Source: Prorocentrum cordatum
Lineage: Eukaryota; Sar; Dinophyceae; Prorocentrales; Prorocentraceae
Assembly (NCBI GenBank): GCA_963575745.1
Contig: CAUYUJ010016160.1
Coordinates: 539,178-603,177 of the forward strand
Direction: 5' to 3'
Length of the DNA stretch: 64,000 nt
Positions 26,456 to 60,997 of the stretch are shown here, piece by piece; within the stretch, counting starts at the first letter, position 1, and each line of letters opens with the position of its first letter. The notes under the pieces are model-generated. The model was not told the origin of the DNA. It made no database searches and saw nothing but the letters and a program-made list of their open reading frames with translations. The translations under genes and the position numbers were made by a program.

Positions 26456-26627
26456 GACTACAGTGCCGCAGGGCATGTCGGGCCTGTGCAGCGCATGCCA
26501 TGACACGGCACACATCGCTGCGATGCGCAGCAAATTATACAGCGCCCGGAGCGGCCTCGGGGGGCGGCGGCTGTCCGGGCCAGTCCCGGGGAAGCCCTGG
26601 CCACGAGCCCTTAACGGGCAATCCCAT

Positions 26628-26692
26628 CCTCCTCCTCCTTCTCCTCCTCCTCCTCCTCCTCCTCCTCCTCCTCCTCCTCCTCCTCCTCCCCC
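26628..26692. repeat. (CTC)n tract
   Basis: About 20 CCT/CTC triplets just upstream of the LINE. In the LINE frame it reads as a poly-Pro run, which is probably not translated. Confidence 0.85.
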
Positions 26693-26795
26693 AGTCGCCG
26701 CTTCCTGCCAAGAAGAGGCGACCGACTGGCCAGATGGGCCAGACGCGCCCCCTTTCGTGTTCACCCCGCCACACAGCCGTAGGGGTGAGGGGGGG

Positions 26796-29700
26796 ATGGC
26801 GCTGATCTCTCTGCTGCTTGCGACCGCTGCTGTGCAGACGACACTAAGAGGGGGGACGGACGACCAGCCAGCGAGGAGTAGCACGTTGTGCAGGAACAGG
26901 GAAGGAGACATGAGAATTGCGACGTATAATCCTCTGTACGCAGACTTCGACAGGCATCAAGAGATAAGCAGGGAGCTAAAATCATGGGACTGCGTGATAC
27001 TGGCGGGCACACAACACAGAGCTGAGCTGGACTATCCCAGCGCGCAAGTTCAACTGAATCACCACTGGGGCGTACGGTTTGGGAAGGGAAGGGGACGGCA
27101 CTCAAATAAAAGCTGCGGGGTGTCTATTCTGCTGGGTAATAGCAAGACTTCATTGAGAGCTGTGTACGACCCGCCCAGTGCGATACAGGGGCGAGCTGGA
27201 GCGGTGCGCATCCGCACGGACCAGGAAGACCTACTCATCGTAGCGGTTTACTTTGCCCCTGTGACGACAGCGCGGAGCGCGGAGACGGCCGACCGTATCT
27301 GCAGCTGGATAGAAGGATTGTACGACAGAGCTGGCGTGAGAGTGACGATGCTGGTGGGAGGGGACATCAACAGTGACTTCGGACTGGCGAGAGACGAATC
27401 AGGCGTTATGGGGAGCACACAGGGACGGGAAGTAGGTAGGCACTACCCCCGCTGTGAAAACGAAAATGGGCTTCGTTTCAGAAAACTGTGTGCCGACAAC
27501 CAGCTGTTTATGCCGAGTACGGACAGCGAGCTTGTGAAGCAAACGTTCTACGGGGCCAAAGGAGGAGGATCGAGGATAGACCACTTCGCGATCCCGTCGG
27601 GGGCCAGGGGCTTGGTACAAAAATGCTGTGTCCTCAAGAACTCGGGCAGGCGCCTGCAAGTGATTCGTAGCCGGTTCCCACGGGACCATGTCCCCGTGGG
27701 CTTGCAGATTCCCCTCGGTTTAGCGTCCCGCAACTATACCAGAATGCAGTACACGCCACCACTGGATAGAACGGCCCTCATGAGATGTCTGAGAGAGGGG
27801 GTCAAGAGGGAGGAGTTCTTTGAGAAGGTGGAGGAGGAGGCTAGGAAGACGACGGAGGAGGAGTGGAGGGAAGCGGCTGCGAGGAAGACTCCCGACAGGA
27901 TGTGGGACCTGCTAGGTGGGGCAGTGAGGACCGCGCTCAAGGAGGTATTCCCGCCTCGGAGGCGGGAGCTGCCCGAGTGGCTGAAAGAACTGCGGGACGC
28001 CAGGATGATGCTGCTGGACAAAAGGCGAGGACTGAGGGAGGGTGAGGGGCGGTGCAGGGAGGAGGAGAAGGAGGAACTCGAGCACGTGCAGGAGATGCTA
28101 CGGCAGGTGTCGGCGGCTCTGAAAGACAACAGGAGGACGGAAACTAAAAGACGACAGGAGGAACTTGCCACGGAAATATGGGAAGCGTATCTAGGGGGTA
28201 GGTGGGCGGAGATGCATGCTCTACGTGTGGAATACGCTAGAAACGGACGGGGGCCCAAGAAACGGTACTATTATGCAAGTAGGACCTACTGGAGCAAGGA
28301 GGAATGGGCTACTGAACTGGAGCGTCCACCGTATGAGGGTGGAATGGCATGCAAAACAGTGGAGTGGGAGGAGACACGGGCAGAGTACGAGGCAGAGTGC
28401 GAAGCCCACGGTGAGCTATTGTTCGATGATGTCGATCTGAGGGACCTGGTACGACAAGACAGATATGCCATGGAAAAGTATCTCAGGAAATGCAAGAAAC
28501 GACGGGCTTGGCCAAGCTGGGGGCTTCCCAGCGAGGCATCACTACTGCTACTTGCGCCGACAGTGTACATGGAACAGCCACACAAACGGTCTGAAGCAAT
28601 GGCAAAAGCGGCTCACGACAGGGCGGAGCAAGAGGAGGACGAGGAGGATTTGCTGAGGCAGACGGAGGTGAGGAGGATGGAGAAAGGAAGGAGACTGCTG
28701 GAGAAGATGGGATGGAAGAGTGGCGAGGGCCTAGGCAGGAGGCAGAGGGAGGAGGGGCAGGCACCACAGGAGATTATAGAAGATGAGCACTGGGTGTTTG
28801 GACGTGCGAAGGGGGCTGGAATAGGGAGCCAGAGATTCACGAGCGGTCAAGCGGCACCATTCTTTCAGACACAACTGGACAAGTGGTTTGTGCTTGTGAG
28901 ACGTGCGCAGTGCATGCCGCTGGACACGCTACGGGCCCAGAGTTTTTCGTCCAGCAAAAACAATGGCAAAGAAGGAATTGCAGGACAACGACTGATGCAC
29001 AGCTACTGCTCGTGGGGTCTGGCGTGGCACGCTGGAATCCATGAAAGGGCGCTCGAGGTTGAAAGGCCAGACTGGGCCCACGGTGGCCTAAAGCACAGGT
29101 CGCGTGAGAGTGCACTGGTCACATTACAATCAGCTCAGTGGAGGTGCAGGCAAGTACAAATACCATATGTGACGACCAATTTCGACTGCACAAATGCATT
29201 CGCCAGTACACGGAGAGACGTTCTGGAGGCCACGGTTGCACGACAGTCAGCAGAAAGTGATGAAATGTTTGCACTGGGGGCAGTCCAGCACCAAGCCATG
29301 AGCATCGCAGGGAGCAATGGGAGGGCAGACATGATCAGTACGACGGGCGCGCAGATGGGCTTCTGCTTAGCCCCTAGGGACTTCAACGATTGCTACAATC
29401 CTGTTATCGCCGCGTGGCTTGCAGAAGACCCAAACGATGCAAACAGGCTGCTGAAGGCTCTCTGCCCGGTGACGAAGAGGTATTCGAATCTGTCGATATG
29501 CACGTTCATGGATGATGTGACGAAACTGTCTATGTGGGAGGGTGGGGTTACTAGCTACGGTATTGCTGCAGAGCTCAATCTTATGACGAAGAGGTTGGAG
29601 GAAAAATTGCTGGAGGGAGGGGGCTGGCACCTCAATCCATCAAAGACAGGACACATGTTAAGCATCATGGGCGAAGGGTGGCAGGGCATTACGAGAAAGC

Positions 29701-31844
29701 TCAGAAGCAAAAACAACGGAGTGATGGGGGAGACGGGACGAGAGCTTCGGGTGCTAGGACCACATCTACACACGACGGGCAATCTAGGAGGAGAGATTAG
29801 GAGGAGGATCGCCGCTGCTAGGAAGGCGTGGAGGATTGCAGGAGTGTTCTGGAAATCCGAGACTCCCAGGGAAGTACGTAGAATGATGTTCATCGCCTTC
29901 GTGCAAGGGGCGGCATTGAGCGGACTTGTTAGTATGGTGCTCGAACCTCGTCTGACTGATGCGATCGACACGGCTTTGTGCAAAATGCTGAGGTGCCTGG
30001 CGCAGGGGAAGTGTTCGTGGCAAGAGCAGGACGGAAACGTGCGACAACTAAGAAAAGAGGAGGTGTTTAGGAAGTGGAAGATAAACCGTGCTTCGGACGA
30101 GCTGAGGATTCGAAGGCTTAAATGGTACCAGAAGTGGGCGGCGTTTCCCGAGGCGCACTCGCAGGTGACGGCGGCAGTGTTCGGGTCGACGCCCCTGGAC
30201 CTGAGGCACGGCACACCTAGGCTAGAGGAGGGGAGGATTAGCACCTACAGTACGCCGTGGGCGTACCAGTACTTGCAGGACCTTCAGTATTTGCGTCAAC
30301 AGTGTGAAGACATGAGTTGGTACGACGACAGGGAATCTGACATATCTATACTACAGTGGGGGACTGAGGACCACCGATGCTGGCTGTGCACTGATGTGGA
30401 CATACTACGCATGAACATGAAGGTACACAATATCTGCACTGCGGATCTACAGGAGGAGGAGCTGGAGGAGGAGAAGCAGTACGTATGTGAGGAGGTGGTG
30501 AAGGGGGACGGCGGGGAGGAGCACGTATGTGGGAAACGGTGCAAAACTTACAGCGGTCTTACAACACACAAAACGTGCCAGCACGGACAGAGGGCGTTGT
30601 TGAGTCTGCTGACGGTAACAAATCAATGCCCGTGGTGCCGAAGCACTTTCTCCAACAGAGACGTGGCCGTCCAACATGTGTACTCGGCGTGTGAAGACAG
30701 GAAGGTATGTTTCGTCAACTTCAGCCCGTGGAAGCACGATGTGGTGCAACCTAAGAGTCTGGAGTGCCCCGTATGTTACATTCAGGCTCAAAGCTTGGAA
30801 GCGCTGCAGGCCCATGTTACCACTCACCACCCTGGGCCTGATCGGGCTCGCTTCACTCGTGACGCAGAAGACAGAGGATGCGATGGCGTGGAGAGTGACG
30901 GGGGCCCACGCCGCAGAGGGAGGAGTACCAGGCGCTGGGACCTCAGCAGGCTCGCGAGGGCCTCAGCCCGCGCCCGCGCACCCAGCCGCCCAAGGCGCTC
31001 AGGCGGGAGGGGCGGCGCTCGGCAAAGGAGGCAAGATTCACCCACCAGCGCCCAAGTACCAGCGCCTGGGCGGGGGCAAGCGCGGCGGGGGCTCGGACGA
31101 GGTCGACCTGGTGGACGCGATGGTGTCGCTCCAGAAGATGGGGCTGAGGCAGGACCAGCGCGCCCGAGAGCACGAACACATGTTGTCCCTGTTCTACATG
31201 ATGACCAAGAAGAGCAAGATCTGCCAGATGGGCCTCGAGGCGGGCCTCGACTACTACGCGGCGGTGGCGAAGAGGGGCAAGGGCCACGGATTGGGGGCGC
31301 CTTACCTGCACGTGGCCGCGGGAGCGTTCGACGGGCTGGTAGAGGACGCACAGGAGGGCCAGCACAAGGCGGTGCTCCAAGCGTACCAGAGGCTGTTCCA
31401 CACGGAGAAGGGCATGAAGTTCGTGAAGGAGGTTTTCGGCAGTTTCAGAGTGAAGGAGGCGTACAACGAGGAGGGAACGGCGGAGAAGGACGTCAAGGTG
31501 AAGGTGAGCTTCAACCTCAATCCCCTGGCAGACGTGGCGATGCTCATAGAGTGCCTGAAGGTGAAGACGGAGGGCGACGTACCGAGCCTGGGAATCTTGA
31601 GGAGGGCGATGATGCTGGCCCTCGAGGAGGCGGGCGGAGTGCAGTCGGACGGGCCCGCGCCAAAGGACGAGCTGACCAGGGTGGTGGAGCGACAAATGCA
31701 AGGGCTGCAGAGGATGCGCGGCTGAGCGGCGCGACGGCCCTGACCATCGTGCAGCTCGAGCGGCTGAGGAGGATGGCGGCAGCTGGCAGTGTCCGTGCAC
31801 GGCAGTTGCTGGAGACAGCAGAGCGGCAGAGAGAGAGGCGTTAG
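26796..31844 (+). CDS. LINE polyprotein: AP-like endonuclease, G-patch, reverse transcriptase, C2H2-type zinc fingers
   Basis: The protein would nick target DNA and copy element RNA at the nick. In order: an endonuclease/exonuclease/phosphatase domain with ATYNPLY (about 26919), GGDINSDFG (27358-27384), SRIDHF (27567) and RDHVPV (27681); a helical, charged linker; a G-patch-like motif KMGWKSGEGLGRR (about 28700-28750); and reverse transcriptase motifs NFDCTNAF (A, 29178), GAQMGFCLAP (B, 29345), FMDD (C, 29503) and LNPSKTG (D). Near 30520-30830 are Cys-His clusters: CGKRC...H, CPWC...H, and CPVC with HVTTHH. Catalytic acidic residues in FxD and FMDD are present. Possible starts are ATG 26796, or 26910 immediately before the endonuclease; the frame is open further upstream through a poly-Pro repeat that I exclude. 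Credible coding ends near 30850; the frame stays open to TAG 31842-31844 but beyond the fingers its Arg/Gly-rich translation looks like a shadow of the second ORF. Confidence 0.85.
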   Translation: MALISLLLATAAVQTTLRGGTDDQPARSSTLCRNREGDMRIATYNPLYADFDRHQEISRELKSWDCVILAGTQHRAELDYPSAQVQLNHHWGVRFGKGRGRHSNKSCGVSILLGNSKTSLRAVYDPPSAIQGRAGAVRIRTDQEDLLIVAVYFAPVTTARSAETADRICSWIEGLYDRAGVRVTMLVGGDINSDFGLARDESGVMGSTQGREVGRHYPRCENENGLRFRKLCADNQLFMPSTDSELVKQTFYGAKGGGSRIDHFAIPSGARGLVQKCCVLKNSGRRLQVIRSRFPRDHVPVGLQIPLGLASRNYTRMQYTPPLDRTALMRCLREGVKREEFFEKVEEEARKTTEEEWREAAARKTPDRMWDLLGGAVRTALKEVFPPRRRELPEWLKELRDARMMLLDKRRGLREGEGRCREEEKEELEHVQEMLRQVSAALKDNRRTETKRRQEELATEIWEAYLGGRWAEMHALRVEYARNGRGPKKRYYYASRTYWSKEEWATELERPPYEGGMACKTVEWEETRAEYEAECEAHGELLFDDVDLRDLVRQDRYAMEKYLRKCKKRRAWPSWGLPSEASLLLLAPTVYMEQPHKRSEAMAKAAHDRAEQEEDEEDLLRQTEVRRMEKGRRLLEKMGWKSGEGLGRRQREEGQAPQEIIEDEHWVFGRAKGAGIGSQRFTSGQAAPFFQTQLDKWFVLVRRAQCMPLDTLRAQSFSSSKNNGKEGIAGQRLMHSYCSWGLAWHAGIHERALEVERPDWAHGGLKHRSRESALVTLQSAQWRCRQVQIPYVTTNFDCTNAFASTRRDVLEATVARQSAESDEMFALGAVQHQAMSIAGSNGRADMISTTGAQMGFCLAPRDFNDCYNPVIAAWLAEDPNDANRLLKALCPVTKRYSNLSICTFMDDVTKLSMWEGGVTSYGIAAELNLMTKRLEEKLLEGGGWHLNPSKTGHMLSIMGEGWQGITRKLRSKNNGVMGETGRELRVLGPHLHTTGNLGGEIRRRIAAARKAWRIAGVFWKSETPREVRRMMFIAFVQGAALSGLVSMVLEPRLTDAIDTALCKMLRCLAQGKCSWQEQDGNVRQLRKEEVFRKWKINRASDELRIRRLKWYQKWAAFPEAHSQVTAAVFGSTPLDLRHGTPRLEEGRISTYSTPWAYQYLQDLQYLRQQCEDMSWYDDRESDISILQWGTEDHRCWLCTDVDILRMNMKVHNICTADLQEEELEEEKQYVCEEVVKGDGGEEHVCGKRCKTYSGLTTHKTCQHGQRALLSLLTVTNQCPWCRSTFSNRDVAVQHVYSACEDRKVCFVNFSPWKHDVVQPKSLECPVCYIQAQSLEALQAHVTTHHPGPDRARFTRDAEDRGCDGVESDGGPRRRGRSTRRWDLSRLARASARARAPSRPRRSGGRGGARQRRQDSPTSAQVPAPGRGQARRGLGRGRPGGRDGVAPEDGAEAGPARPRARTHVVPVLHDDQEEQDLPDGPRGGPRLLRGGGEEGQGPRIGGALPARGRGSVRRAGRGRTGGPAQGGAPSVPEAVPHGEGHEVREGGFRQFQSEGGVQRGGNGGEGRQGEGELQPQSPGRRGDAHRVPEGEDGGRRTEPGNLEEGDDAGPRGGGRSAVGRARAKGRADQGGGATNARAAEDARLSGATALTIVQLERLRRMAAAGSVRARQLLETAERQRERR
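30883..31725 (+). CDS. Second ORF of the LINE, 280 aa, unknown function
   Basis: The ORF starts at ATG 30883 (MAWRVTGAHAAEGG) and ends TGA 31723-31725, in the +1 frame relative to the RT ORF. After a Gly/Ala/Pro-rich start it is a well-formed, probably helical protein (LVDAMVSLQKMGLRQDQRA; LSLFYMMTKKSKICQMGLEA; AVLQAYQRLFHTEKGMKF). No known domain is recognised. The frame is also open upstream to about 30676, so it could be reached by frameshifting after the zinc fingers or by re-initiation. Similar ORFs following LINE RTs occur in dinoflagellate gene sets as far as I recall. Confidence 0.65.
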   Translation: MAWRVTGAHAAEGGVPGAGTSAGSRGPQPAPAHPAAQGAQAGGAALGKGGKIHPPAPKYQRLGGGKRGGGSDEVDLVDAMVSLQKMGLRQDQRAREHEHMLSLFYMMTKKSKICQMGLEAGLDYYAAVAKRGKGHGLGAPYLHVAAGAFDGLVEDAQEGQHKAVLQAYQRLFHTEKGMKFVKEVFGSFRVKEAYNEEGTAEKDVKVKVSFNLNPLADVAMLIECLKVKTEGDVPSLGILRRAMMLALEEAGGVQSDGPAPKDELTRVVERQMQGLQRMRG

Positions 31845-32087
31845 GGGGAGGCTGCGCCCAGAGGAGGCAGGCCACCCCCACCATCGACACGAGGCGAGAG
31901 TTCCCCCGTGCCGACGCGGCACCGCTTCGACGTCTTGTGGGCGCCAGGCGGCCGCCGCAGGTCCGCTCCGACGGCAGGAAGTGTCGCCAAGCGGGGCCAG
32001 TCCATATCATTCGCAGGGGGCAGGAGCAAGATGCTGATGTGAGGCGTGCTGGCCCGCGGAGGCGAGGGAGACACGCCCCCCAAGCGC

Positions 32088-32116
32088 ATATCATATCATA
32101 TCATATCATATCATAT
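32088..32116 (+). repeat. (ATATC)n tail of the LINE
   Basis: About five and a half units of CATAT/ATATC. Short tandem repeats in place of poly(A) are a common 3' end of non-LTR retrotransposons. Confidence 0.75.
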
Positions 32117-34175: not shown

Positions 34176-34317
34176 CCACCTTGGGACGAACGGACACGGG
34201 AGCAAAACGTGTGGAAACAGTGCATGGCGCCAGGGGGGCCTCTCTTTTGGGCCGCCGCTTCGTGCCATCTCTGAGGCCTGGGCGGCATCCTGGTGCCCAA
34301 GAGGGCCGTCGCATGTC

Positions 34318-34360
34318 TCCGTAGCCATTTTGGCTCAAGCAGTTTTGGCTCAAGCTCAAG
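34318..34360 (+). other. Relict DinoSL, one perfect 22-nt copy plus partial copies
   Basis: The sequence CCGTAGCCATTTTGGCTCAA is present with its leading T and final G, a perfect match to the conserved dinoflagellate spliced leader. It is followed by CAGTTTTGGCTCAAG (34340-34354), an older truncated leader, and CTCAAG (34355-34360), a possible third remnant. Stacked leaders are expected if the gene has passed through trans-splicing and retroposition more than once. No GT donor follows, so it is not an SL RNA gene. Confidence 0.92.
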
Positions 34361-34415
34361 AGGTGTGAAGGAATAAGTTCAGCGCGCTCAGCTTGGCATC
34401 CGCGCCGCAACAGCA

Positions 34416-34613
34416 ATGCCGGAGACGCTGGAGATCAGCAAGGAGGCGGTGTCGGGCAACGGCACGCTCGAGAACGTTGGGATCAAGCTGGATGGCCAGT
34501 TCAAGTGCCCGCACTGCAGGCAGGCCTTCTCGGACGACAAGGCCCGCCAGCTCCACCTGAAGTTCCAGTGCCCCACGGCCATCGCGAAGCAGATCAACCC
34601 GATCGGGGACTAG
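34416..34613 (+). CDS. 65-aa single zinc-finger protein (intronless retrogene)
   Basis: The ORF starts at the first ATG after the leader (34416) and ends TAG 34611-34613. It begins MPETLEISKEAVSGNG and carries one zinc-finger-like unit, CPHC followed after 12 residues by HLKFQC, giving a C2HC arrangement at about residues 32-53. The function of the source gene is unknown; a small nucleic-acid- or protein-binding role is plausible. The reading frame is intact, so the insertion is recent or still under selection. It sits inside a retroposed mRNA copy whose own promoter, if any, must come from the landing site. Confidence 0.75.
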   Translation: MPETLEISKEAVSGNGTLENVGIKLDGQFKCPHCRQAFSDDKARQLHLKFQCPTAIAKQINPIGD

Positions 34614-36150
34614 GGAGCGAAGCAGGCGACCACGCCTTGATCTGCGGGGCGGGCTTTGGGTAGACGGGGAGACAGAGCTGGTCCGGACGGCGCCTCGGCG
34701 ACGCCGGCTCGAATATTCTCTGGCCAGTAAGCAGTTTGACATGACGCAATGTCGAAGAGACACAAAAAAAGTGGGCCGTCGCATGTCTGGCGTTCACTGC
34801 AGTGGGGGCCCATGCCAAGAAACACCCTGCTTGACTCCAGGGTGCCCTGGGTCTCTTTGGATTCGAAGGTTACTCTTGGGAAAGCGTGACCTTCCCACAC
34901 CAAAAATCAATGGGCGTCCTGGAGTCTCAGGGTTGGGTTTCTTGTGGAAGGTTTCTTGTGGTCGGGCCTCTACTGTAGGGGCCTCCGTGCACCCGCAAGT
35001 CATCTTTGCCTCCTCCCCCCTCCCTCCCCCCCTCCTCCACACCTCCACTCTCCGCTTTTCCCGACTGGCGAGAGCCCCCCCGCCCCGCGGGGATGTGTCG
35101 GAGGAGGGGCAGGCATCGAACTCACTCGCGACGCCCCCAGGAGCCAGATCGGAGGCTCGGGGAGCGAGCCCAACGTACAGATGGAGTCGTCCAACTGGGA
35201 AGCTGGGGTTCGGTTTCGGTTCTTGTCCCGAGAGTTAGCGACGCAAAGCAGCGCGAGTAGATGCAACAGCCGTGGACTGGTCACGCCAAAATGAATCGGT
35301 GCCCAGCCTTCGGGGGCGTGCGCGGGGTTGATCCGCGGCTGTCCCGCGGTTGTCCCATGTAGTCCCGTGTTTGTCCCGTGGACCCCCGTCGGGGGGGTAC
35401 CCCCCCCCACGCTTGTTCAGAAACCCGGAGTAAGCATCACAAGTCCGGCGTCTGCGCCGGCATCGGAGCGCTCTCGGGCGCGCGCGCGGCGTGCCCGAGG
35501 TGGCCGTTTGCGGCGAGCCCGCAGGGCTCCGCGCGCCGGTCCGCCCCTCTGCGCGATGGTCGTTCACGGGCCCCCCGTCGGGCCACGGCAGCGCCGGGGG
35601 AGGAAAATTAAGAGACGCGCGCCCCTCCCGCCCCGCGGCCTCGACGCCCTCGGGCCAGGGAGCAACCACGACGGGAGGCTTGCGGCAATCCTCGGCCTCT
35701 GGGGGCCCTCGCCGAGCCTCGGGACCGTCGCAGGACGATCCGGGAGGAAGCACCGGTGCCAGGGAGTGTGATCGCTTTCATACTCATTGTTTTGGCCGAT
35801 CGGCGCGGGCCCTCGTACCCCCCCCCCCGTCCCCCCCCCCCACGGAGTAGATCTTGGCGGTGTTTGGTGCCTGCTTCGAGCAGGTGGAGTCCCTCCCCCA
35901 TGGGACGCACCGTTGCGAGCAGTCGCGTGAAGCAGATGTCTGGAGCCAGACCCCCCGCTCCCCCCCCTTCCGCCCAAGGTGGAAACGCCGAATAAGAAAA
36001 CGCTCACAGTGGGTGCAGACCGCTGGGGCGTCCACGTCTTCACAGAGTCATGGCGTCGGGGGTCTGGGGAGCCGTTCCCCTGCCCTCTCGCCGTCTTGCC
36101 CTCCTCCCGGCCTTAACCGTCGGGGCATGCCTGCCCCCGCCCCACTGCCA

Positions 36151-57919: not shown

Positions 57920-57941
57920 TGCGTAGGCAGTTTGGCTCAAG
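57920..57941 (+). other. Decayed DinoSL relic
   Basis: GCGTAGGCAGTTTGGCTCAAG matches the spliced leader with two internal changes plus the first base. It lies 69 bases upstream of the start codon, and CTTGAGCCA about 20 bases before it could pair with its 3' end. Confidence 0.75.
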
Positions 57942-58009
57942 ACCAAAGTGGCCACACGTCTGAAAACGAAGCACTCCGCAGTCTGGACCTCGACACACCC
58001 TTTGCCGAG

Positions 58010-58546
58010 ATGGCATTTCCACTTCGCACTCTTTTGGCTGTGATGATTTTGGCGGTGAGCGCGACAGGCGCTTCCTTGCGGATGTTGAAGGAGAAGAAGG
58101 CGAGCATTGCAAAGGCCCGCGACGCCGGCAAAGTGGTGGGCGAGAGCAGGGCTACGGAGCACTTCTTCAAGGAATGGGTGCAGAAGTTGCCAAGAAACCT
58201 GACCAAAGAGAAGCAGGACGCCGTGGTGGCCACGCTGGAAGCCGAGGTGAGCAAGCTTGATGAGAACGTTGCCCACATCAAGGCTATCCAGAAGAACGCG
58301 ACGGCGAACTCCCACAGCAAGGACGCCTTGAAGAAGGCGCTGCCGGAGAAGGATCGGAAGATGATGGACAACATGGACGAGTGGAGCACGCGGATGAACC
58401 AGAAAGCCAAGATGGGCGCCATGAACGTGATGTCGAAGCTGAAGAACGCGATCCACCTGATCAAGAAGGGCGCTCTCAGTGGCAACGACCAGGCGGCCGG
58501 AAAGCTGGAGGACGTGCTGAAGCAGATGACGTCTTTGGGGCGCTGA
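58010..58546 (+). CDS. Small secreted helical protein, 178 aa, copy 1
   Basis: ATG 58010 was chosen because it gives a clean signal peptide, MAFPLRTLLAVMILAVSA, with likely cleavage near ATG-AS; the frame is open upstream but that part reads as 5' UTR after the leader relic. Stop TGA 58544-58546. The mature part is Lys/Ala/Glu-rich and helical, with KARDAGKVVGESRATEHFF, KEKQDAVVATLEAEVSKLDE and a C-terminal AAGKLEDVLKQM. There are no Cys residues in the mature chain. No family is recognised. It is intronless, consistent with an origin from mRNA, and is duplicated at 60467. Confidence 0.8.
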   Translation: MAFPLRTLLAVMILAVSATGASLRMLKEKKASIAKARDAGKVVGESRATEHFFKEWVQKLPRNLTKEKQDAVVATLEAEVSKLDENVAHIKAIQKNATANSHSKDALKKALPEKDRKMMDNMDEWSTRMNQKAKMGAMNVMSKLKNAIHLIKKGALSGNDQAAGKLEDVLKQMTSLGR

Positions 58547-60376: not shown

Positions 60377-60397
60377 CGCGAAGGCATTTTGGCTCAA
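60377..60397 (+). other. Decayed DinoSL relic, copy 2
   Basis: GCGAAGGCATTTTGGCTCAA keeps the CATTTTGGCTCAA core of the leader exactly. Its errors differ from those of copy 1, so both decayed from a common better leader. Confidence 0.75.
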
Positions 60398-60466
60398 CGC
60401 CCACGTGCCCACAGGTCTGAAAACGAAGCGCGCCGCAGTCTGAACCTCGACGCACCTTTTGCCGAG

Positions 60467-60997
60467 ATGGCACTTCGCACTCTTTTGCCTGTGCTGCTCT
60501 TGGCGGTGAGCGCGACAGGCGCTTCCTTGCGGATGTTGAAGGAGAAGAAGGCGAGCATTGCAAAGGCCCGCGACGCCGGCAAAGTGGTGGGCGAGAGCAG
60601 GGCTACGGAGCACTTCTTCAAGGAATGGGTGCAGAAGTTGCCAAGAAACCTGACCAAAGAGAAGCAGGACGCCGTGGTGGCCACGCTGGAAGCCGAGGTG
60701 AGCAAGCTTGATGAGAACGTTGCCCACATCAAGGCTATCCAGAAGAACGCGACGGCGAACTCCCACAGCAAGGACGCCTTGAAGAAGGCGCTGCCGGAGA
60801 AGGATCGGAAGATGATGGACAACATGGACGAGTGGAGCACGCGGATGAACCAGAAAGCCAAGATGGGCGCCATGAACGTCATGTCGAAGCTGAAGAACGC
60901 GATCCACCTGATCAAGAAGGGCGCTCTCAGTGGCAACGACCAGGCGGCCGGAAAGCTGGAGGACGTGCTGAAGCAGATGACGTCTTTGGGGCGCTGA
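60467..60997 (+). CDS. Small secreted helical protein, 176 aa, copy 2
   Basis: ATG 60467 begins MALRTLLPVLLLAVSATGAS, a signal peptide two residues shorter than in copy 1 and with several substitutions. From LRMLKEKKASIAKARDAG onward the protein is the same as copy 1. Stop TGA 60995-60997. Signal-peptide divergence with an identical mature protein suggests gene conversion over the 3' part or purifying selection on a young duplicate. Role unknown; secretion or entry to the endomembrane system is predicted. Confidence 0.8.
   Translation: MALRTLLPVLLLAVSATGASLRMLKEKKASIAKARDAGKVVGESRATEHFFKEWVQKLPRNLTKEKQDAVVATLEAEVSKLDENVAHIKAIQKNATANSHSKDALKKALPEKDRKMMDNMDEWSTRMNQKAKMGAMNVMSKLKNAIHLIKKGALSGNDQAAGKLEDVLKQMTSLGR

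Follow-up and report, generated by a model that had tools for sequence, protein, structure and literature searches.

Which class of retroelement returns trans-spliced mRNAs to dinoflagellate genomes? Retrogenes carrying relics of the dinoflagellate spliced leader (DinoSL) were described by Slamovits and Keeling (2008), and Song et al. (2018) cited a proportion of about one-fifth to one-quarter for genes or full-length transcripts with relic leaders in dinoflagellates; in a 2020 paper on Polarella full-length transcripts, relic leaders were far rarer (0.7% and 2.3%). The type of retroelement behind this recycling was called unknown by Song et al. (2018), who favored Ty1/copia, and a 2025 survey in Open Biology left the choice between LTR and non-LTR elements open. 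The terms "target site," "target-primed," and "direct repeat" do not occur in the available text of that survey, and "target site" does not occur in the available portions of Jaeckisch et al. (2011), Lee et al. (2014), the 2020 Polarella paper, or a 2024 review. Here, we describe a leader-tagged gene copy in a 64-kb stretch of the Prorocentrum cordatum genome (the window, meaning this stretch as a whole) together with leader-capped LINEs elsewhere in the same genome.

Anatomy of the insert

The insert comprises 454 nt (34319 to 34772) and lies between two exact copies of a 16-bp direct repeat, GGGCCGTCGCATGTCT, at 34303 to 34318 and 34773 to 34788; these features and those that follow are on the + strand. 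A perfect 21-nt DinoSL, CCGTAGCCATTTTGGCTCAAG, begins at the 5' edge of the insert (34319 to 34339). The T at 34318 is both the 22nd (first, variable) base of DinoSL and the last base of the 5' repeat, and the 5' edge of the insert is therefore ambiguous by 1 nt. The leader is followed by a 15-nt relic leader, CAGTTTTGGCTCAAG (34340 to 34354), which corresponds to the usual relic CCATTTTGGCTCAAG with two changes, and then by CTCAAG (34355 to 34360). These 6 nt may be an older leader relic or, given their shortness, a chance match; a 6-nt relic form of this type appears in the 2025 Open Biology survey. An open reading frame (ORF) of 65 amino acids with a C-P-H-C zinc-finger-like motif occupies 34416 to 34613, stop codon included, and is followed by the presumed 3' untranslated region (UTR) of the copied mRNA (34614 to 34763). 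An A7 tract at 34764 to 34770, a remnant of the poly(A) tail, is the sole + strand run of at least seven A's between 26001 and 35000, and 2 nt (GT) separate it from the 3' repeat. If one mismatch is allowed, the repeat extends to 20 bp (34299 to 34318 versus 34769 to 34788) and takes in two A's of the tract.

The initial annotation had described a perfect leader at the exact 5' edge, stacked older leader remnants, a 65-amino-acid ORF, a short A tract, and an identical 16-bp repeat on both sides, and all of these were recovered at the positions given above. Its account of the locus as a retroposed, trans-spliced, and polyadenylated mRNA with a target site duplication (TSD) is supported by the leader, the A7 tract, and the 16-bp repeat, and more than one round of recycling is supported as well. 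In DinoSL-tagged retrogenes, a leader or relic stands directly upstream of a genomic coding sequence, as it does here. Gene copies made by target-primed reverse transcription (TPRT) have direct repeats of about 7 to 20 bp; in this case, the repeats are 16 bp and abut both ends, and the 3' A tract is present, though short. The retrogene is genuine and well preserved and has a LINE-type footprint. A leader at the exact 5' end, together with an A tract and a duplication, fits TPRT in which a trans-spliced mRNA was copied over its full length. Our preferred reading, to which we give a probability of about 0.82, is that the processed mRNA of a zinc-finger-like gene was inserted by LINE-type TPRT.

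An LTR retroelement of the Ty1/copia type might instead have made the cDNA, with its integrase or recombination inserting the copy. Integrase duplications are 4 to 6 bp long, whereas the duplication here is 16 bp and comes with an A tract; no LTR sequence was noticed, and leader-capped LINE loci with 16- to 18-nt duplications are present in the P. cordatum genome (see below). The case for such an element comes from Ty1/copia expression, on which Song et al. (2018) based their preference, and from Oxyrrhis, in which all 14 retrotransposon-like EST clusters match Ty1/copia (Lee et al., 2014). For the present insert, we consider this origin unlikely.

The 16-bp repeat and chance

Within the window, GGGCCGTCGCATGTCT has two sites at up to two mismatches and no others, whereas 100 dinucleotide shuffles of the window gave a mean of 0.04 such matches. 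As a swapped-flank control, the sequence next to the upstream edge of 18 other leader loci was compared with the 8 kb downstream of the insert site. The insert's own upstream flank matched over 16 nt, whereas the foreign flanks matched over at most 9 nt. The entire assembly (4.13 Gb in 21,875 contigs) contains four further copies of the 16-mer, with adjoining sequence that agrees over no more than 3 nt; from their sequence context, these copies look like chance occurrences. They were also considered as possible empty sites and rejected, since they have no adjoining flanks in common within this genome's assembly.

These results bear on a second alternative, namely, that the 16-mer is a chance or preexisting repeat and that the copy arose when an older retrogene was duplicated at the DNA level along with the sequence around it. 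The region upstream of the insert looks by eye like a degenerate repeat rich in GGCC and CTCTTGG, with few exact motif counts. Of 2,000 positions drawn at random from the window, 18 (0.9%) had a copy of at least 16 nt inside 1.5 kb, which simple repeats probably explain. Against this stand the placement of the repeat, whose 5' copy adjoins the leader and whose 3' copy is 2 nt from the A tract, the limit of 9 nt reached by foreign flanks at the insert site, the rarity of the 16-mer in the genome with no flanks in common among its four other copies, and the surrounding 264 kb, in which the insert occurs only once. DNA-level duplication is accordingly a very improbable explanation.

The neighboring LINE-like ORF

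The initial annotation had named a LINE about 2 kb away as a plausible source of the enzyme and had called it intact. This LINE-like ORF (26463 to 31844, + strand) has a G-patch match above the Pfam cutoff and, by eye, reverse transcriptase (RT)-like motifs and C2H2-like fingers. An in-frame piece of the RT region matched RVT_1 with an E value of 0.006, which is below the Pfam cutoff; the endonuclease piece had no Pfam match, and a solved-structure search with the element returned nothing useful. The label "intact" is doubtful because the C-terminal part looks frameshifted by eye, with 30676 to 31725 open in another frame. The 3' side of the element carries a (CATAT)6 array (32087 to 32116, + strand) and no A run of at least 7 nt. 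Comparison of its two flanks for common stretches of at least 11 nt outside simple repeats yielded one 11-mer only (24870 and 33010), which sits well away from the ends of the element. Given the lack of an A tail and of a convincing duplication and an RT match below the cutoff, the claim about the enzyme source is not supported; judged from its sequence, the element is a poor candidate for the enzyme and is incidental to the retrogene. That it made the copy in trans is scarcely credible, for its RT-like motifs and its position 2.5 kb from the insert are set against the 3' CATAT array, the missing A run and duplication, the subthreshold RT, and the likely frameshift, and proximity does not indicate which enzyme acted in trans.

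The encoded protein and a second copy

A protein search with the 65-amino-acid ORF matched 11 database proteins, and all of its Pfam zinc finger matches were below the cutoff. One of the 11, P0002 from P. cordatum (104 amino acids), is 98% identical across the 65 residues, and its gene is on a 160,294-bp contig, versus the 975,677-bp contig that contains the window. By eye, the N-terminal extension of P0002, GVKAEVLRVQLGIRAAAA, resembles the 5' UTR of the insert read in frame (GVKE*VQRAQLGIRAATA). A PFAVLGSR-encoding stretch ahead of GVKAEVLRVQLGIRAAAA could be an older leader relic, as judged from codons rather than from the DNA itself. The 98% identity and the resemblance of the extension to the 5' UTR of the insert suggest a second copy elsewhere in the P. 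cordatum genome, the P0002 gene, as a candidate parent or sibling. Five of the other ten matching proteins are also 65 amino acids long, and eight of the ten are from contigs of less than 1 kb; the gene is therefore not unique to the P. cordatum genome. In the 264 kb around the insert, no further copy of the gene or of the insert, including a parent, was found, and the DinoSL of the insert is the sole exact leader.

Elsewhere in the window, a tandem gene pair (57921 to 58546 and 60378 to 60997) is 95% identical over 876 bp. A degenerate leader-like sequence, with three and four mismatches, respectively, lies at each start, and the pair is perhaps an older retrogene that was later duplicated in tandem.

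Stacked leaders across the genome

A full leader followed after 0 to 10 nt by TTTTGGCTCAAG was found at 1,333 genomic places (685 on one strand and 648 on the other), whereas the same pattern read backwards had no occurrence genome-wide. Flanks were sampled at the first 60 places, in list order (L027 to L086), from about 100 listed of the 1,333; 20 of these had approximately 1.4 kb of downstream sequence, and 40 had short flanks. The 18 nt adjoining the upstream edge of the leader matched TCC repeats at 28 of 60 places and GGA repeats at 7 (match of at least 0.72), such that 35 of the 60 abut one of these arrays. The TCC background at the same threshold, taken over 264 kb of the contig (+ strand), was 1.6% (binomial P = 6e-34), and at a threshold of 0.75 on both strands, it was 1.35% for either motif. 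By eye, ATC-type arrays adjoin five more of the sampled loci. The base ahead of the 21-mer leader was T in 47 cases, C in 8, A in 3, and G in 2 (n = 60), and the relic begins CCATTTT in 57 of the 60 loci.

Many of the 20 longer stretches contain ORFs with coiled-coil or zinc-finger-like N termini and a resemblance, by eye, to LINE ORF1 proteins. Three such ORFs were compared with Pfam; two had no match, and one had only subthreshold coiled-coil matches. By this ORF1-like appearance, many of the 20 longer loci may be LINEs, and for most of the 60, the class is a candidate assignment. No exact duplication of more than 10 nt was found among the 20 double-leader loci within 1.4 kb. With one mismatch allowed, 2 of the 20 reached 12 to 13 nt, both in TCC sequence. 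At least two of these loci (L039 and L029) far exceed the 1.4-kb stretch that was searched. One sampled locus, L037, is a retrocopy of eIF1 (SUI1, 5e-19) with a full leader and a relic; it was considered as a second clean case and rejected, as no duplication of more than 8 nt was found within 1.4 kb.

Two further features of the sample were observed. L075 and L076, which share a contig and are separated by 25 kb, have almost the same flanking sequence and probably stem from one insertion that was duplicated at the DNA level. At four loci (L054, L065, L066, and L074), at least three stacked relics follow the full leader, and the third runs past the end of the stretch.

Leader-capped loci read to their far ends

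Three loci were read to the far end. L039 (with L087) and L053 (with L088) were picked because their flanks are not arrays and their starts are LINE-like; the reason for picking L029 (with L089) was its TCC flank. L039 and L053 are LINEs whose 5' ends consist of a full DinoSL and a relic. Both have the RT and APE-like endonuclease matches of APE-type LINEs: in L053, RVT_1 (5e-9) and Exo_endo_phos (6e-8) are above the Pfam cutoff and zf-RVT is subthreshold, and in L039, RVT_1 (4e-9) is above the cutoff and Exo_endo_phos (7e-4) is below it. The L039 insert is 5.17 kb long and is flanked by an exact 18-nt duplication, versus at most 10 nt for foreign flanks. The candidate duplication of L053 measures 12 nt, and 4 additional bases precede the leader; the duplication is weak, being 1 nt above the control (foreign flanks, at most 11 nt). 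In L029, one TCC array precedes the leader and a second starts at approximately 5.04 kb; the 16-nt sequence TCCTTCTCCTCCTCCT, which is not itself a perfect repeat, is present on both sides, versus at most 9 nt for foreign nonarray flanks. From its ORF1-like start, L029 appears by eye to be LINE-like and to lie inside a TCC array. None of the three loci has an A run of at least 6 nt at its far end, and for this reason no poly(A)-accepting enzyme was found among them. The leader-capped LINE loci with 16- to 18-nt duplications show that leader-capped RNA gets inserted via TPRT in the P. cordatum genome.

Mechanism of insertion

For the retrogene, LINE-type TPRT would begin with the mature mRNA of a small zinc-finger-like gene that carried a DinoSL cap and relics of earlier leaders and that may have come from the P0002 gene or a sibling. 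The endonuclease of an APE-type LINE would nick one strand near CCCAAGAGGG, a target that differs from the L1 consensus, and the poly(A) tail would prime on the exposed DNA end. RT would then continue as far as the outermost 5' base of the leader, and a second-strand nick 16 to 20 bp away would give rise to the duplication. We infer that a leader-capped LINE of the L039/L053 type acted in trans on this mRNA. The contrast between the insert's own flank and the 18 foreign flanks argues for this sequence of events, as do P0002, the duplications of L039 and L029, and, weakly, that of L053. The shortness of A7 argues against it, as does the GT that intervenes before the second 16-mer, a point that falls away if the repeat is 20 bp long and has one mismatch. 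As a general rule, TPRT is opposed by L037, which lacks a duplication, and by the 20 loci with no exact one above 10 nt in 1.4 kb.

Mammalian processed pseudogenes made by L1 are intron-free mRNA copies with an A tract and direct repeats on the order of 16 bp. The insert resembles them in being an mRNA copy with an A tract and direct repeats of similar size and differs from them in having a trans-spliced leader at its exact 5' end and an A tract of only 7 nt. Unlike the L1 system, L039, L053, and L029 are without an A tail.

Comparison with earlier reports

The insert shares with previously described relic-DinoSL retrogenes (Slamovits and Keeling, 2008; Jaeckisch et al., 2011; Song et al., 2018; 2025 Open Biology survey) a full leader, relics cut short at the leader AG or close to it, and stacking by repeated rounds. 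Those works, in their available text, give no TSDs and do not decide on a class of enzyme; the footprint of the present insertion, in contrast, can be read. LINE-mediated retroposition of leader-tagged inserts has already been argued for viral relics in Symbiodinium (PMC10235124). That argument was made from nearby LINE ORFs rather than from a duplication or a leader-capped LINE, and "target-site" does not occur in the available text of the paper. Microsatellite-targeting non-LTR retrotransposons (PMC4640811) resemble the leader-capped elements in their location at or inside TCC/GGA arrays; those elements have a restriction-like endonuclease, whereas L053 and L039 match the APE-like Exo_endo_phos (L039 below the cutoff) and carry a spliced leader. 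Neither TSDs on leader-tagged copies nor leader-capped LINEs are reported in the titles and abstract openings of the dinoflagellate papers found by literature search; one of these papers, as far as its available text goes, concerns DNA-transposon-like intronic elements in Amoebophrya.

Implications

The leader-capped LINEs in TCC arrays are the more novel lead, and its basis is the three loci read to the end and the 60 flanks. A wider reading, which we hold tentatively and at somewhat less than even odds, is that dinoflagellate LINEs are themselves trans-spliced. DinoSL would be added in each round, the internal CCGTAG would be the next 3' acceptor, TCC arrays would be the preferred insertion sites and would afterwards provide the pyrimidine tract, and cellular retrogenes would be by-products. 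At the leader edge, TCC outnumbers GGA by 28:7; this bias and the CCATTTT relic start in 57 of 60 loci fit trans-spliced LINEs. Selection on surviving copies could be an alternative cause of the 28:7 bias. Polypyrimidine selection alone was considered as the cause of the TCC association and is weakened as an explanation by the similarly raised frequency of GGA and by the TCC arrays at both ends of L029.

With a retrogene whose footprint is readable and leader-capped LINEs with a like footprint, the question of the recycling enzyme becomes countable. If it is true that LINEs use the leader as both cap and acceptor, trans-splicing and retrotransposition would be coupled in dinoflagellate genomes.
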